This document shows positions 2,009-6,116 of a DNA stretch of 7,302 nucleotides, in pieces; the first letter of the stretch is position 1, and each line of letters begins with the position of its first letter. The notes under the pieces were generated by a model, which was not told where the DNA came from, made no database searches, and saw only the letters and a list, made by a program, of their open reading frames with translations. The DNA comes from an uncultured Candidatus Saccharibacteria bacterium (lineage in GTDB: Bacteria; Patescibacteria; Saccharimonadia; Saccharimonadales; UBA6022), in the NCBI GenBank assembly GCA_946479115.1, contig CAMLED010000044.1, positions 1-7,302 on the forward strand. Reading direction: 5' to 3'. The position numbers and the translations under genes were made by a program.

Positions 2009-2764
2009 GTGAGTAAAAAAGCTTGGATTATTTTTGTGGCCATTTGTGTCGTCGTACTGGGCGCGCTGGTTTTTTCATCAAACAGTAAAAAAGTCGATGT
2101 TAGCGCGGTTGATAGCAACAGCATCATCAAGGCAACAGAGGATACTGGCAACATTGCCGATCACGTGTTTGGTAAGGCCGATAGCAAAGTCATGTTGGTT
2201 GAATACGGCGATTACCAGTGTCCAGGCTGTGGTAGCGCCTACCCTATCGCTAAATCACTCAGCGAAAAGTACAAGGACCAGCTTGCCTTCGTATTCCGTA
2301 ACTTTCCTCTAACGAGTATTCACCCGAACGCCAAGGCCGCAGCCGGTGCCGCTGAAGCTGCTGGACTACAGGGCAAGTTCTGGGAAATGCACAATCAGCT
2401 GTATGAAAGCCAGGACAGCTGGAAATCACTTAATTCATCAACACGCGGTGAATACTTCAAAACGCTTGCCACGAAAGTCGGAGTTGATGGTAGTAAATAC
2501 GATACCGATTTCGCTGGCCAAGCCGTAAGTAAGAAGATTGCTTTTGATATGGAACTTGGTAAAAAAGTGAAAGTAAGTGGCACCCCAACCTTTTACCTGA
2601 ACGGCAAGATGGTTGATCAATACGTGAAGGACGGCAAATTCGTCGAGGCTAACACTGATGGTGCACAGCCAATCTGGAGTGATGCTGACGCATTTGAGAA
2701 ACTACTCCTCATTCCTGCATTCAAGGAAGCTGGCATCAGCCTTCCTGAAGCAACCAAATCGTAA
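2009..2764 (+). CDS. DsbA-like thiol:disulfide oxidoreductase, membrane-anchored
   Basis: 251 residues. An N-terminal hydrophobic helix (about 5-22) after MSKK is a signal anchor or signal peptide, placing the thioredoxin-fold domain outside the membrane. The catalytic motif is CPGC (Cys71, Cys74) in the context EYGDYQCPGCG. The cis-proline loop is SGTPTFYLNG (190-199), with Pro193. The helical insertion typical of DsbA lies between (about 100-180). In this family the protein oxidises or isomerises disulfides in exported proteins; the redox partner (DsbB or VKOR) is not in the window. The only other cysteine is Cys13 in the anchor. The start is GTG, supported by AAGGAG 6 nt upstream. The gene is alone on its strand, divergent from the CBS-protein gene and closed by the terminator at 2778-2812. 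Family is confident; oxidant versus isomerase role is open. Confidence 0.92.
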   Translation: MSKKAWIIFVAICVVVLGALVFSSNSKKVDVSAVDSNSIIKATEDTGNIADHVFGKADSKVMLVEYGDYQCPGCGSAYPIAKSLSEKYKDQLAFVFRNFPLTSIHPNAKAAAGAAEAAGLQGKFWEMHNQLYESQDSWKSLNSSTRGEYFKTLATKVGVDGSKYDTDFAGQAVSKKIAFDMELGKKVKVSGTPTFYLNGKMVDQYVKDGKFVEANTDGAQPIWSDADAFEKLLLIPAFKEAGISLPEATKS

Positions 2765-2777
2765 TCAGTACGAATGT

Positions 2778-2812
2778 AAAAATACCCCGCTCATAGCAAG
2801 CGGGGTATTTTT
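2778..2812. terminator. Bidirectional intrinsic terminator
   Basis: A perfect 14-bp stem pairs 2778-2791 with 2799-2812 around a 7-nt loop. The GC-rich core is ACCCCGCT/AGCGGGGT, with A-run and T-run flanks forming the base of the stem. It therefore works in both directions: for the DsbA-like gene (stop at 2764, plus) and for the AbrB-MFS operon (stop at 2824, minus). Confidence 0.93.
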
Positions 2813-2823
2813 ATCGTATTGTT

Positions 2824-4521
2824 TTAGGCTTCGCCAGGCGTTTCGGTTGGCTTGGCGGTGCGAAGCGGTCGCTCCTTTAGCGTGATTGCTAACACCAAGG
2901 CTAGGAACATCATGGTTGAGGTAACGATAAAGATCGTATGCAGACTCTTAGAGAAGGCATTGACTAGCTTGTCGCTATATTCATTTTGCTTGTCTGTAAA
3001 GTCTTGCTTCAACTGGTTTTTAACTTGCGCCGGTACATCCACCTTTGCCATGCTGGCGGTAAAGCCGTCGGTAATCTGTGCTTTCGTTGTTGGCATATTC
3101 AGCATCAGAAGTGTATTAGTATCATTCGGGTTTGAAACAATCTGGCTAGCTGCTGGTGATTGTTTAAGTGTTTGGATATAGGCATCCTTACTCATATCGC
3201 CTAGGTGATTACCGATACCCAAGGTCAGCATACTACCAAAGACAGCTACACCAATCGTTGAACCGAGGCCGCGGAAGAGCTGACTAGAACTCGTTGCGAT
3301 ACCAAGATCCTTTTGCTCGAATTCATTCTGAATTGCAATGTTCATCAGCGGCATAGCGGCACCGATACCGGCACCAACAAAGAAAATGATGATTGCCTCA
3401 TGAATAAACTGGCTTGTTGGGGTCAATGTAATCAACGAGCCAATCGCAATGGTTGCCACCACGAAGCCACCAACCATAAAACGTTTATATTTTCCGAAGC
3501 GCGACACCAGCTGTCCGGTAGTAATGCTCACCGCCATAAGTCCGGCAATCATTGGTAGCAACATCAAGCCAGACGTGGTTGGACTTGCGCCGTAGACCTG
3601 CTGGTTGAACTGCGTCAGGTACATGATCGATCCAAGCATCGCCGCACCAACAAAGGCCGCAATACCAGATAGAATAAGGAAATTTTTGTTTTTAAAGAAC
3701 GCGAGATCCAAAATCGGCTCTTTGGCACGGCGCTCTACAAAGATGAAGGCAGTCGTGGCTGCAACAACAATTGCGGCCATAATCAGGCGAAGCGTTTCAA
3801 GGCTCATGCCAGTGCTGGTTAGTAGGTCGGCAAAAATCTTGTCGGTGTTATCAACGGCAAGCACAAGGGTTGCAAGGGCTACGGCCAGCAGGCTGGCACC
3901 GATGTAATCAACACGTGGCTTTTTCTCGTGCTTGAGTGACGGACAGTAAATAGCAATGATCGTAAAGGCGGCAATCGCGATTGGCACATTGATATAGAAC
4001 GTCCAGCGCCAGTCAGTTACGAGGCCAAAAATATTATGTGATTCGGTCAGGAAGCCGCCTAAGAGCGGGCCAACCACTGATGACACACCAAAGACAGCAC
4101 CGATCATTCCCTGCCACTTACCGCGCTCACGAGCGGCAAACAAATCGCCAATGATCGTAAAAGCGTTAGCGGTGATAATACCACCACCAATACCCTGCAC
4201 GGCACGCCAAATAATTAATTGATTAATATCACCACTCATACCGCTAAAGAGCGAGGCGACCGCAAAAATAGTCACACCGATTAGTAGCAGCAAGCGACGT
4301 CCGAACATGTCAGACAACTTACCTGCAATTGGCGTCGTAATCGTCGTAGTAATCAAATACGCCGTAACGACCCAGCTAAGGGACGAGAAAGCATCGAAAT
4401 CTTCGACAATTTTGCCCAGTGCAGTGGAGATGATAGTCTGGTCAAGCGCAACGAGAAACAAGCTGGCCATGACCGAAATCATAATAATAATTTTGTTGCG
4501 TAAACTAAGATGGTGGTTCAC
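2824..4521 (-). CDS. MFS multidrug efflux transporter, DHA2 (EmrB/QacA) family
   Basis: 565 residues, the usual length for a 14-TM proton-coupled drug exporter in the inner membrane. Visible family motifs are LDQTI with Asp27 in TM1 (motif D1), GKLSDMFGRR at 67-76 (motif A), WRAVQGIGGG at 105-114 (motif B, Arg106), GVSSVVGPLLGG at 145-156 (motif C, the antiporter signature) and DWRW at 170-173. A hydrophilic loop of about 80 residues (440-522) separates the last two TM helices, and a short charged tail follows. It starts at GTG, 6 nt after the stop of the AbrB-type gene and with no clear Shine-Dalgarno sequence, so translation is probably coupled to that gene. An alternative in-frame ATG (Met14) would remove the N-terminal charged residues just before TM1. 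Transcription ends at the bidirectional terminator at 2778-2812. The substrate cannot be told from sequence. Confidence 0.93.
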   Translation of the reverse strand: MNHHLSLRNKIIIMISVMASLFLVALDQTIISTALGKIVEDFDAFSSLSWVVTAYLITTTITTPIAGKLSDMFGRRLLLLIGVTIFAVASLFSGMSGDINQLIIWRAVQGIGGGIITANAFTIIGDLFAARERGKWQGMIGAVFGVSSVVGPLLGGFLTESHNIFGLVTDWRWTFYINVPIAIAAFTIIAIYCPSLKHEKKPRVDYIGASLLAVALATLVLAVDNTDKIFADLLTSTGMSLETLRLIMAAIVVAATTAFIFVERRAKEPILDLAFFKNKNFLILSGIAAFVGAAMLGSIMYLTQFNQQVYGASPTTSGLMLLPMIAGLMAVSITTGQLVSRFGKYKRFMVGGFVVATIAIGSLITLTPTSQFIHEAIIIFFVGAGIGAAMPLMNIAIQNEFEQKDLGIATSSSQLFRGLGSTIGVAVFGSMLTLGIGNHLGDMSKDAYIQTLKQSPAASQIVSNPNDTNTLLMLNMPTTKAQITDGFTASMAKVDVPAQVKNQLKQDFTDKQNEYSDKLVNAFSKSLHTIFIVTSTMMFLALVLAITLKERPLRTAKPTETPGEA

Positions 4522-4527
4522 GGGCGG

Positions 4528-4776
4528 CTACTTATCCAACTCTGCGGCTGGGCTATCCAACACGTCTTTATAGCGTTCAATATTATCGCTCAGATGTTCA
4601 ATCATTGAGCGTAGTTGTTCTTCCTGGATCAAGCCAATCCATTGACCCTGTTTCGATCCAATAACATACAGGCGGTCGCCTGATTCGATGCCAAGAATTT
4701 CGCGGGCTTCGGCGGGAATAACCACCTGGCCTTTGGTCCCGACAGTTGCGGTTCCATATAATTTTTTATCGTGCAT
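4528..4776 (-). CDS. AbrB/SpoVT-type DNA-binding regulator
   Basis: 82 residues. The N-terminal swapped-hairpin DNA-binding domain is clear: TVGTKGQVVIPAEAREILGI at 11-30, followed by ESGDRLYVIG. The C-terminal part (about 52-82) is probably a helix or short coil (EEQLRSMIEHLSDNIERYK). In this family such small proteins bind DNA as dimers or tetramers and act as transition-state regulators, local autoregulators or antitoxins. No toxin gene is next to it; the partner is the efflux transporter 6 nt downstream, so a role in controlling that operon is the natural inference. The ATG at 4776 has AAGAGG (4787-4792) 10 nt upstream. The promoter (4816-4845) carries three 9-bp direct repeats that could be its operator. 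Confidence 0.9.
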   Translation of the reverse strand: MHDKKLYGTATVGTKGQVVIPAEAREILGIESGDRLYVIGSKQGQWIGLIQEEQLRSMIEHLSDNIERYKDVLDSPAAELDK

Positions 4777-4815
4777 TGTGTTTTTACCTCTTAAAGACAG
4801 TTTTATTCATTCATT

Positions 4816-4845
4816 AGTCTACCGTAAGTATGAAAAGTATGTCAA
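4816..4845 (-). promoter_or_regulatory. Promoter of the AbrB-MFS operon
   Basis: On the minus strand there is a perfect -35 TTGACA (4840-4845), an 18-bp spacer and a -10-like TAGACT (4816-4821). This predicts a start near 4809 and a leader of about 33 nt before the ATG at 4776. The -35 lies within the tandem repeats at 4826-4852, so a protein bound there would compete with RNA polymerase. Confidence 0.6.
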
Positions 4846-4852
4846 GTAGGTC
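4826..4852. repeat. Three tandem 9-bp direct repeats over a -35 element
   Basis: Plus strand: AAGTATGAA (4826-4834), AAGTATGTC (4835-4843) and AAGTAGGTC (4844-4852), head to tail with an exact 9-bp period. All three share AAGTA-G; neighbouring copies differ at one or two positions. The repeats cover the spacer and -35 of the AbrB-MFS promoter, which suggests an operator, possibly for the AbrB-type protein itself. Repeat structure is seen directly; function is inferred. Confidence 0.6.
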
Positions 4853-4868
4853 AACCGCTAACACAAAC

Positions 4869-4895
4869 AAAAAACACCCCGGTGCCTTGGGGTGT
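4869..4895 (-). terminator. Intrinsic terminator of the intergenic minus-strand unit
   Basis: On the minus strand, ACACCCC (complement of 4889-4895) pairs with GGGGTGT (complement of 4874-4880) around an 8-nt loop. The stem is followed at once by a U-rich tail, TTTTTTGTTTGTGT. The plus-strand reading has its T-run only after five other bases, so the minus direction is favoured. No annotated gene ends nearby on that strand except corA, 300 nt upstream. It most likely ends the short unit starting near 5125. Confidence 0.82.
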
Positions 4896-4909
4896 CTCAA
4901 TTTTTTGGT

Positions 4910-4928
4910 GAAATCTTATGCAGATTTC
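4910..4928 (-). other. 7-bp hairpin downstream of the small ORF
   Basis: GAAATCT and AGATTTC form a perfect stem around a 5-nt loop, 17 nt after the small ORF's stop and 14 nt before the terminator stem. No T-run follows it on either strand, so it is not a terminator itself. It may stabilise the transcript's 3' end or be a protein or RNA contact site. Confidence 0.45.
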
Positions 4929-4945
4929 GGGGGTGAACACACGTT

Positions 4946-5038
4946 CTAATGTGCGATATACAGTTGCCATTCGGCAGGCACCACATCCACTGCAATCTTT
5001 TTGCTTCGTGATGAAACAAATTCGATAGCTATTGGCAT
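4946..5038 (-). CDS. Small ORF, 30 aa, unknown function
   Basis: ATG to TAG, 30 codons: begins MPIAIEFVSSRSKKIAVD and ends VVPAEWQLYIAH. I do not recognise it. It has no cysteines, no membrane helix and no signal peptide. A short basic patch (SRSKK, 10-14) is followed by alternating hydrophobic residues that could form a small beta hairpin. AAGGAG (5051-5056) lies 12 nt upstream, a strong Shine-Dalgarno sequence at longer than ideal spacing. In-frame sequence upstream is closed by a TAG just before the AAGGAG, so the ATG is the only normal start. Its own promoter and terminator bracket it, which favours a real small gene. A chance ORF inside a non-coding RNA is the main alternative. Confidence 0.42.
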   Translation of the reverse strand: MPIAIEFVSSRSKKIAVDVVPAEWQLYIAH

Positions 5039-5047
5039 GAGGTTTTC

Positions 5048-5119
5048 GTACTCCTTGTACTATGTACAGCCCTGCGCGCTTCGACCTTTAAATTAAAATT
5101 TTCGTGTTTTTGGCGCAAG
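5048..5119 (-). promoter_or_regulatory. Structured leader with Shine-Dalgarno sequence in a possible hairpin loop
   Basis: On the minus strand, CTTGCGC (complement of 5113-5119) can pair with GCGCAGG (complement of 5071-5077): 7 bp with one G-U. Downstream are three GTAC words (5064-5067, 5057-5060, 5048-5051). The middle one can pair with the first (3-nt loop) or with the last, which puts AAGGA of the Shine-Dalgarno in a 5-nt loop. These pairings exclude each other, as in a translational switch, but the stems are only 4 bp. Confidence 0.35.
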
Positions 5120-5130
5120 ACACATCATTT

Positions 5131-5159
5131 ATACTACCAATAATATATTGGCTCGTCAA
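5131..5159 (-). promoter_or_regulatory. Promoter of the intergenic unit
   Basis: Minus strand: TTGACG (complement of 5154-5159), a spacer of exactly 17 bp (5137-5153), and TAGTAT (complement of 5131-5136). Predicted start is near 5124. A perfect palindrome occupies 15 of the 17 spacer bases, so the promoter looks built for repression. Confidence 0.6.
5137..5151. promoter_or_regulatory. Perfect 15-bp palindromic operator candidate
   Basis: CCAATA-ATA-TATTGG: two perfect 6-bp arms around a 3-bp centre, lying between the -35 and -10 of the promoter at 5131-5159. The size and position fit a dimeric repressor of helix-turn-helix type. It does not resemble CRP, FNR, CIRCE or NrdR boxes. A single CCAATA half-site recurs at the start of the small ORF (5030-5035, minus-strand sense). 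The cognate protein is unknown. Confidence 0.6.
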
Positions 5160-5164
5160 GACAT

Positions 5165-5182
5165 GCGCGATATTCATCACGC
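5165..5182 (-). other. Hairpin just downstream of corA
   Basis: GCGTGAT and ATCGCGC (minus-strand sense) form a 7-bp stem with one G-U around a 4-nt loop, 13 nt after the corA stop. No T-run follows in the corA direction. It could mark the 3' end of the corA mRNA or slow polymerase, but it is not a canonical terminator. No better terminator for corA was found before 4895. Confidence 0.35.
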
Positions 5183-5195
5183 TCTTGTTTATATA

Positions 5196-6116
5196 CTAAA
5201 AGACCTTAAGCCGTTTGGCAAGTAGGTACACCCCTAAAAGAACGATAACTGTAAATACTACAACAGCACCATACGCCCACGGTGCATCCTGGAATGGCAA
5301 CGCGACGTTCATACCGTACATACCGTAAAAGACATTCGGTAATGCAATCAAGACCGTAAACACTGTTAGTGTCTTCATGCGTTGGTTCAATACATTATTG
5401 GCAATAGTGCCATAGGCATTACGAATGCTGGTAATCGTCTGGTTATGACTGTCAATCGATACAAGCAGTTGGCGGATATACAACAGGACATCTTCAAGTG
5501 CCTCATGGTCTTTTGTTTCGCGGTATAACTCTTTAAGACGCTCGGCTACAACTAACATACCACTTAGGTTCATGCGATATTCATTAAGGTTATCTTCGAC
5601 CGTTACGAAGGTAATGAAATCTTGGTTAGTCACCTCGTGAGTGCGCAGGCGCCGGCCAGTGTTGAAAATATGGCGAGCTGTGCGTTGAATCAACTGCTCG
5701 TATTCACTTACGACCGTTGCAAACATACCAAGTAGCAGCCCAGTTGTACTGGCATCAACGGCAGACAAAACAGGTGTAGCCAGTTTGTAGTCCGTCGTTG
5801 TTGCGATCGAGACATTTGCAAACACGTCATCCTTGACTGCCAGAAGCACTGGTGTCGTCACCACCTGACCGTGCTTGCCGCGCTGTGCAGTACGTACAAA
5901 GACATACAAGCCATCGTCGTGCACTTCGACACGCGGGAGCTCATTAACATCAAGCACGTCACGCAGGACGTTATAATCCATACCGTACGTACTAGACAGC
6001 AGGCGCAGGTCAGTCTCATCGACTCCTTCACCATGAATCCAGGCGTTAGCTTTCGGTGGCGCCGATACCTGCTGGTATTGTTCCGCCTCGCTGTGCTTGA
6101 CATAATATTTCAACAT
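5196..6116 (-). CDS. corA: CorA-family magnesium/divalent cation channel
   Basis: 306 residues, close to the usual length of about 315. The large N-terminal cytoplasmic domain (about 1-245) includes the long helical stalk (about 125-250). Two C-terminal membrane helices follow (about 248-267 and 281-300), joined by the short outside loop with the family signature YGMN (267-270) in FYGMYGMNVALPF. A basic tail, KRLKVF, ends the protein in the cytoplasm. In the family it forms a pentamer and imports Mg2+, with some Co2+ and Ni2+. The ATG at 6116 has no Shine-Dalgarno sequence; a -10 (TATACT, 6125-6130) ends 8 nt upstream, so the mRNA is probably leaderless and has no room for an Mg riboswitch. 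It is divergent from the Crp-like regulator with 109 bp between. Zn export by a ZntB-like member is less likely but cannot be excluded by eye. Confidence 0.93.
   Translation of the reverse strand: MLKYYVKHSEAEQYQQVSAPPKANAWIHGEGVDETDLRLLSSTYGMDYNVLRDVLDVNELPRVEVHDDGLYVFVRTAQRGKHGQVVTTPVLLAVKDDVFANVSIATTTDYKLATPVLSAVDASTTGLLLGMFATVVSEYEQLIQRTARHIFNTGRRLRTHEVTNQDFITFVTVEDNLNEYRMNLSGMLVVAERLKELYRETKDHEALEDVLLYIRQLLVSIDSHNQTITSIRNAYGTIANNVLNQRMKTLTVFTVLIALPNVFYGMYGMNVALPFQDAPWAYGAVVVFTVIVLLGVYLLAKRLKVF

Follow-up and report, generated by a model that had tools for sequence, protein, structure and literature searches.

The window, by which we mean the whole 7,302-nt stretch of DNA that was analyzed, carries corA, a small gene of 30 codons, abrB and an MFS gene in this order on its minus strand, and a dsbA gene on its plus strand (Table 1). 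The CorA protein is 92% identical to its nearest proteins, with named matches that include Candidatus Saccharibacteria and Saccharimonadales. An earlier note, made from the letters of this DNA alone, had described a small transcription unit on the minus strand between corA and abrB, with a promoter, a leader, AAGGAG, a 30-codon ORF, hairpins and a terminator, and every one of these parts is present in that order, including the -35/-10 pair at 17-nt spacing (TTGACG/TAGTAT). The note recognized neither the RNA nor the peptide, and we obtained the same result in Pfam, NCBIfam, Rfam and PDB: the window peptide has no match in Pfam (one of the 36 members of profile A3 reached E 0.068 to JmjN), none in NCBIfam and none in PDB either by sequence or by profile, and all families of Rfam gave no match anywhere in the window at E up to 5. 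The best hit in PHROGs had an E of 0.06 only, a search of phage DNA returned no match to the unit, and a search of plasmid DNA gave nothing beyond a match of 26 nt, present in two records at E 0.3.

Table 1. Layout of the locus and parts of the small transcription unit, in positions of the window.
Feature	Position	Strand	Description
corA	6116-5196	minus	first gene in the minus-strand order, followed by the small gene
sigma-70-like promoter	5159-5131	minus	TTGACG (5159-5154), 17 nt, TG-n-TAGTAT with TAGTAT at 5136-5131
leader hairpin P1	5069..5123	minus	arms 5123-5113 and 5079-5069; GGTCGAA (5086-5080) in the loop
small hairpin GTAC-AAGGA-GTAC	5048..5060	minus	Shine-Dalgarno AAGGAG (5056-5051) within the loop
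ORF, 30 codons and TAG	ATG 5038 to TAG 4946	minus	conserved peptide, MPIAIEFVSSRSKKIAVDVVPAEWQLYIAH
in-ORF RNA hairpin, codons 7-13	5000..5020	minus	TTTGTTTC-ATCAC-GAAGCAAA; from RNAalifold and pair counts
GGUGCCU, end of codon 19 to codon 21	4976..4982	minus	complement of the terminator loop
post-stop hairpin/palindrome	4946-4935	minus	GAACGTGTGTTC, GAAC-GTGT-GTTC, directly 3′ of the stop
hairpin GAAATC...GATTTC	4910..4928	minus	upstream of the terminator; predicted fold
intrinsic terminator	4898-4871	minus	10-bp stem, 8-nt loop AAGGCACC at 4888-4881, T tract
abrB	4776-4528	minus	beyond the small gene, followed by the MFS gene
dsbA	2009-2764	plus	beyond abrB-MFS in the window

Taken as a single sequence, the unit has modest statistics. 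The region 4500-5500 contains five promoter-like and four terminator-like sites, against 2.1 ± 1.2 and 0.9 ± 0.9 in shuffles, the predicted 262-nt transcript folds with z = -2.55 (equally good in one of 200 shuffles), and a 30-codon ORF is cheap, which leaves the decision to comparison. The claim that the unit is self-contained stands on that comparison: promoter, ORF and terminator are all kept in relatives, the opposite of the lack of conservation that the earlier note had named as telling against it, and we place the unit above chance because of this conservation.

Scanning genome contigs with a CorA alignment yielded 71 loci, of which at least five (L064, L066-L069) come from outside Saccharibacteria, judged by their titles. 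Among these 71 loci, 41 encode the peptide, at a length of 30 aa in 39, 29 in L058 and 31 in L046, and it starts mostly 100-250 nt past corA. In one locus a 1316-aa ORF with repeated domains (L003:5983-9933) lies between corA and the small gene, and in another (L031) the small gene is divergent from corA. A whole-genome search matched the peptide in 12 of 12 genomes at E ≤ 1, including two in which it lies away from corA (G007 and G009), and two matches that were weak at first (G010 and G012, E 0.096 and 0.15) improved to 5.3e-13 and 7.5e-13 when the wider profile, A3, was used. Removing 26 duplicates and then 11 loci scoring under 13 from the 170 loci with any profile match left 133 distinct loci, the window included. 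Counted by script, the ORF is 30 codons long in 126 of them, 29 in five (among which L185 is a trimming error, its true length being 31) and 31 in two, and it starts with ATG in 131. Across the 126 loci with 30 codons, third positions account for 61% of the changes between pairs at least 80% identical and for 42% between pairs below 40%, and the other two frames contain stops in 108 and 56 loci. Distant forms such as MPVKIKIIHQRSFKVEVKVRRPSWQQFINY keep M1, W24 and the hydrophobic residue pattern, with a mean net charge of +5.0 compared with +1.2 in close forms. Judged by this pattern of conservation, the window ORF is a real small-protein gene, from a family of about 27-31 residues.

We searched 392 genomes of the class with profiles of this family, and found a match to A2 in 200 at E ≤ 0.2 and to A3 in 192 at E ≤ 0.001. 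Weak partial matches to A2 led to a second subfamily of 27-30 aa, MRIKKLKRS..RKAKIAPAEWQEFIEI, to which 12 of 15 examined stretches belong (L235-L246; L247-L249 are not members), convergent with dsbA in all 12. Its members are basic in their N-terminal part, end in PAEWQ.FIEI, and lie in the same place beside dsbA. The profile built on it, A7, matches 110 of the 392 genomes at E ≤ 0.001, so that A3 or A7 together reach 280 of 392 (22 genomes are matched by both), a lower bound given for genomes of unstated completeness; the other 112 genomes have neither match. A single match per genome is the rule, in 181 of 192 genomes for A3 and in 109 of 110 for A7. We infer that the two subfamilies are one family on the basis of their common place beside dsbA and their common C-terminal motif. 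The protein has a C-terminal stretch P-x-x-W-x-x-[FY]-[IL], with the end about six residues past the Trp, and an N-terminal part that is basic or strand-like. Examination of 20 of the 200 class genomes without an A3 match revealed the dsbA place in 16, one of which carries the second subfamily (L224) and one a doubtful relative (L231). In a sample of 286 genomes of the phylum, A3 at E ≤ 0.01 matched 20, of which 17 were also matched in the class search and the remaining three (G473, G567, G587) are partial, and A7 matched 10, nine class members and one partial match (G483). Because the matches beyond the class set are all partial, the family seems to be restricted to the class to which the window's relatives belong, taken as Saccharimonadia, and the 30-residue gene is likely an overlooked core gene of Saccharibacteria.

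The gap between corA and abrB, in which the earlier note had set the unit and which it wished to compare across genomes, is the true setting in the window; the most constant neighbor of the small gene is, however, a convergent dsbA, which 116 of 133 loci have at a distance of up to 900 nt. A same-strand corA lies upstream in 52 of the 133 and abrB downstream in four, all these counts being lower bounds, since for many loci the sequence extends no more than about 900 nt to either side. The window, L001, L002 and L051 have the abrB-MFS pair between the small gene and dsbA; in the window (2009-4776) and its nearest relatives the pair has moved to this place from upstream of corA. A 19-27-nt block of the abrB promoter region (window 4825-4848, TTGACATACTTTTCATACTTAC) recurs in many related loci, some 2.9-3.0 kb into the sequence and with 92-100% identity; abrB-MFS is upstream of corA in these loci, which suggests a conserved promoter or operator of abrB. 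No ribosomal genes were seen among the neighbors of the small gene.

The promoter of the unit is conserved as well: an upstream promoter scores at least 10 in 111 of 133 loci (83%), against 8.6% of mononucleotide shuffles, and of the 129 loci in which any promoter was called, 107 have a spacing of 17. CATAAGC or its complement GCTTATG recurs in several lineages beside or inside the promoter, around the -35. Hairpins upstream of the -35 look convincing by eye, and at a score of at least 10 they are not above shuffles (4.5% vs 2.5%, 111 loci). The palindrome directly after the stop resembles the LexA/SOS-type operator, whose consensus is GAAC-N4-GTTC. In several relatives it is replaced by GAGTC/GACTC, GGATC/GATCC or GAATC/GATTC hairpins, and this swapping of arms fits an RNA hairpin rather than a fixed operator, which we rejected. 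Post-stop hairpins scoring at least 9 are modestly enriched overall (11.3% of loci, 2.6% of shuffles). The word “repressible”, which headed the unit in the earlier note, is thus not borne out, as no conserved operator was found and the leader element, among the candidates scored, was found at this gene only.

The transcript itself was compared in A4, an alignment of 46 transcripts that we chose for their alignable leaders from a pool of 79, a pool prefiltered for the CDS motif and terminator loop described below (of 86 loci, 82 had a promoter call, and a redundancy filter left 79). RNAalifold finds leader, in-ORF and terminator stems. Named pairs are formed in 96.2% of cells compared with 91.3% in shuffles, and cells with changes on both sides number 83 compared with 21.6; none of 500 shuffles reaches any of five measures and slid controls are all far lower, in a test in which the structure was read from the very sequences tested and in which the genomes are related and cells are not independent events. 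Leader hairpin P1 (helix 2) changes on both sides in six of eight pairs with 94.2% of cells paired, and the terminator stem (helix 6) covaries. The Shine-Dalgarno hairpin (helix 3) has 91.3% of cells paired, with its outermost pair broken in 10 of 41 sequences, and is lost in some subclades. In the in-ORF hairpin, base 1 of codon 9 and base 3 of codon 11 are paired in 87 of 92 distinct sequences, never as C-A, which couples the amino acid at codon 9 (Ser or Pro) with the silent third base of Arg11; the second pair, between base 3 of codon 8 and base 1 of codon 12, forms in 67 of 92 only. Silent sites are nearly fixed at codons 17-24 (84 distinct sequences), with V20 as GTG in 84 of 84 and A22 as GCC in 82 of 83; codons 4, 9-11, 15 and 16 vary, and residue A4 uses four codons. 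Read from this covariation and codon usage, the mRNA is under constraint in the window's clade.

Of 18 genomes, 11 had a match to R1, a model of the leader, at E ≤ 1, and in all 11 the best match lay directly before the small gene, with 150 of the 178-341 candidates per genome scored; the same 150 candidates per genome gave one further match, in G006 (E 0.72). A riboswitch or regulon leader was rejected on these best matches, all at the small gene. On 47 loci R1 matched 10, all at the small gene, and distant leaders went unrecognized. In L031, L046, L050, L039 and L070 the leader shows GGTGCC and then GGTCGA in an apparent hairpin tip, GGTGCC sitting there instead of in the ORF. The earlier note had left open whether the gap holds an undescribed small RNA or a small-protein gene, and since conservation of the peptide reaches far beyond that of the RNA elements, the answer is mainly a protein.

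The terminator loop AAGGCACC contains a 7-nt complement of GGUGCCU in the ORF, with a computed duplex energy of -14.6 kcal/mol for two 12-nt pieces. A string search finds the CDS motif together with the loop in 86 loci, neither of them in 39, the CDS string alone in six and the loop string alone in two. The CDS string lies away from codons 20-21 in L153 and L184, the codons are kept without the loop in L156, L157, L159 and L170, and L149, in which V20 is replaced by E, has lost the loop too (GATGCACC). On a dsbA tree built from partial proteins for 120 of the 133 loci, with TGTGCC of L121 counted as motif, the CDS motif changes eight times and the loop ten times, six of these on common branches, one joint gain (L029, L036, L038) being a possible tree error. 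Pairing of the loop with the codons is likely, and we do not regard it as proven because within A4 six of the seven pairs are invariant and no compensatory exchange occurs. A precedent for such an arrangement is icaR mRNA of Staphylococcus aureus, in which the long 3′-UTR pairs with the Shine-Dalgarno region of its own 5′-UTR (PMC3868564). The two are alike in that a motif at the 3′ end could pair with a region further upstream in its own mRNA; in the present unit, however, the motif is the terminator loop and its complement lies in codons 19-21, so that pairing of the icaR type with the Shine-Dalgarno region was rejected.

Based on these data, our preferred reading, which we consider quite probable, is a transcription unit with one gene, which encodes the 30-residue protein; its RNA folds would act in cis, and its product we guess to be an accessory of an RNA-protein machine. 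The structured mRNA is probably self-regulating: initiation would be set by the leader and Shine-Dalgarno hairpins, and when ribosomes are scarce the terminator loop would fold back on codons 19-21 of its own mRNA and close the message, such that the folds would control the expression of the small gene itself. Points that weigh against this reading are the 112 class genomes with no match, the invariant loop-codon pairs, the loci that retain the codons but not the loop, the weaker second pair of the in-ORF hairpin, and RNA folds that are missing or go unrecognized in distant lineages.

The conserved loop could also be explained from the opposite strand, if convergent dsbA used the same terminator and carried GGUGCCUU, the complement in the ORF being incidental. 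The convergent position of dsbA in most loci agrees with this explanation, as do the A tracts ahead of the hairpin in many of them, which would allow the terminator to end both transcripts. We consider it improbable, given that the window, L001, L002 and L051 keep the loop with the small gene despite the intervening abrB-MFS, that the dsbA of the window has a different terminator, and that loop and ORF codons change on common branches of the dsbA tree.

We also considered that the transcript is a dual-function RNA which, besides encoding the peptide, pairs in trans with other mRNAs through the exposed loop AAGGCACC. Such RNAs are known from VcdRP, with the 29-aa protein VcdP (PMC8672173), and from SR1, with the small protein SR1P (PMC8501984, PMC8152036), and both VcdR and SR1 pair in trans with mRNAs through pairing regions of their own. 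The likeness is one of architecture, with no sequence relation claimed: a short independent transcript, a very short ORF, a structured RNA and an exposed loop, all predicted here. The unpaired loop is conserved inside a covarying stem, and as a loop in a hairpin it is specific to the small gene, since 26 of the 27 occurrences of AAGGCACC in a stem of at least 4 bp, in 72 sources, lie there. In contrast to VcdRP and SR1, no trans target was found: GGTGCCTT occurs 18 and 21 times in two genomes, compared with 13 and 12 for the reversed control, and no common gene or start region was recognized in the contexts of 30 of these 39 sites. The present loop instead complements its own ORF, with linked changes of loop and codons that point to a cis target, it is missing in distant members, and the protein is the most widely conserved part of the unit. 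For these reasons we find pairing in trans unlikely.

That the unit is a leader peptide and attenuator for the next gene is suggested by the window, where a short ORF and a terminator precede abrB-MFS on the same strand. We rejected attenuation of abrB on gene order, as so few loci have abrB downstream and dsbA, on the opposite strand, is what commonly comes next, and the abrB of the window has a promoter-like site of its own at 4845-4816; this explanation is very improbable. A non-coding structured RNA with an incidental ORF would account for the stable fold and the covarying stems, and is hardly credible for a peptide whose conservation extends well beyond that of the RNA folds, with its start, stop and length kept and third positions dominating the changes.

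Returning to the single-gene unit with folds acting in cis, our leading and still tentative guess is that the protein serves an RNA-protein machine as a small accessory, the ribosome being the likeliest such machine, because the near-fixed length, the single copy, the basic distant forms and the gene-specific leader resemble such proteins. Small lineage-specific ribosomal proteins with autogenous leaders exist, and the present protein is likewise very short, mostly single copy, lineage-wide and basic in its distant forms, with a leader found at its own gene only. It differs from them in that the family has no PDB match and no ribosomal neighbors were seen, and the peptides of the window's clade are near-neutral in charge, which we counted against the ribosome. 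AlphaFold2 predicts an extended chain with a C-terminal helix at low confidence (pLDDT 67.5 and 70.4, pTM below 0.2), a shape that would fit a peptide folding on a partner. A bolder version, possible and in our view doubtful, would join a lineage-defining core mini-protein of Saccharibacteria, a new subunit of the ribosome or of another ribonucleoprotein, to a self-sensing mRNA in which the terminator loop kisses its own ORF and loss of translation closes the message. We know of no described bacterial mRNA with a switch of this kind between a terminator loop and an ORF.

Among the matches listed for open-licence literature on small proteins or RNAs of Saccharibacteria, TM7x and Patescibacteria or the candidate phyla radiation, none concerned the gene, and the matched passages of a TM7x transcriptome paper (PMC10768705) and of a paper on Southlakia epibionticum (PMC10633639) do not mention such a gene. 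The comparative evidence is best read as a new family of small proteins in Saccharibacteria, one that the libraries and papers we searched do not describe. Automatic annotation overlooks many small ORFs (PMC7673341), and the present gene occurs in at least 280 of the 392 sampled class genomes and matches no Pfam or NCBIfam model. Cultured, naturally transformable strains of Saccharibacteria exist (PMC10633639). With its covarying mRNA, the unit lends itself readily to testing cis control of a coding sequence by a terminator loop. Saccharibacteria live as epibionts and have tiny genomes, and because this mini-protein is strongly conserved and mostly single copy in such genomes, it makes a good candidate for a function both essential and lineage-specific.
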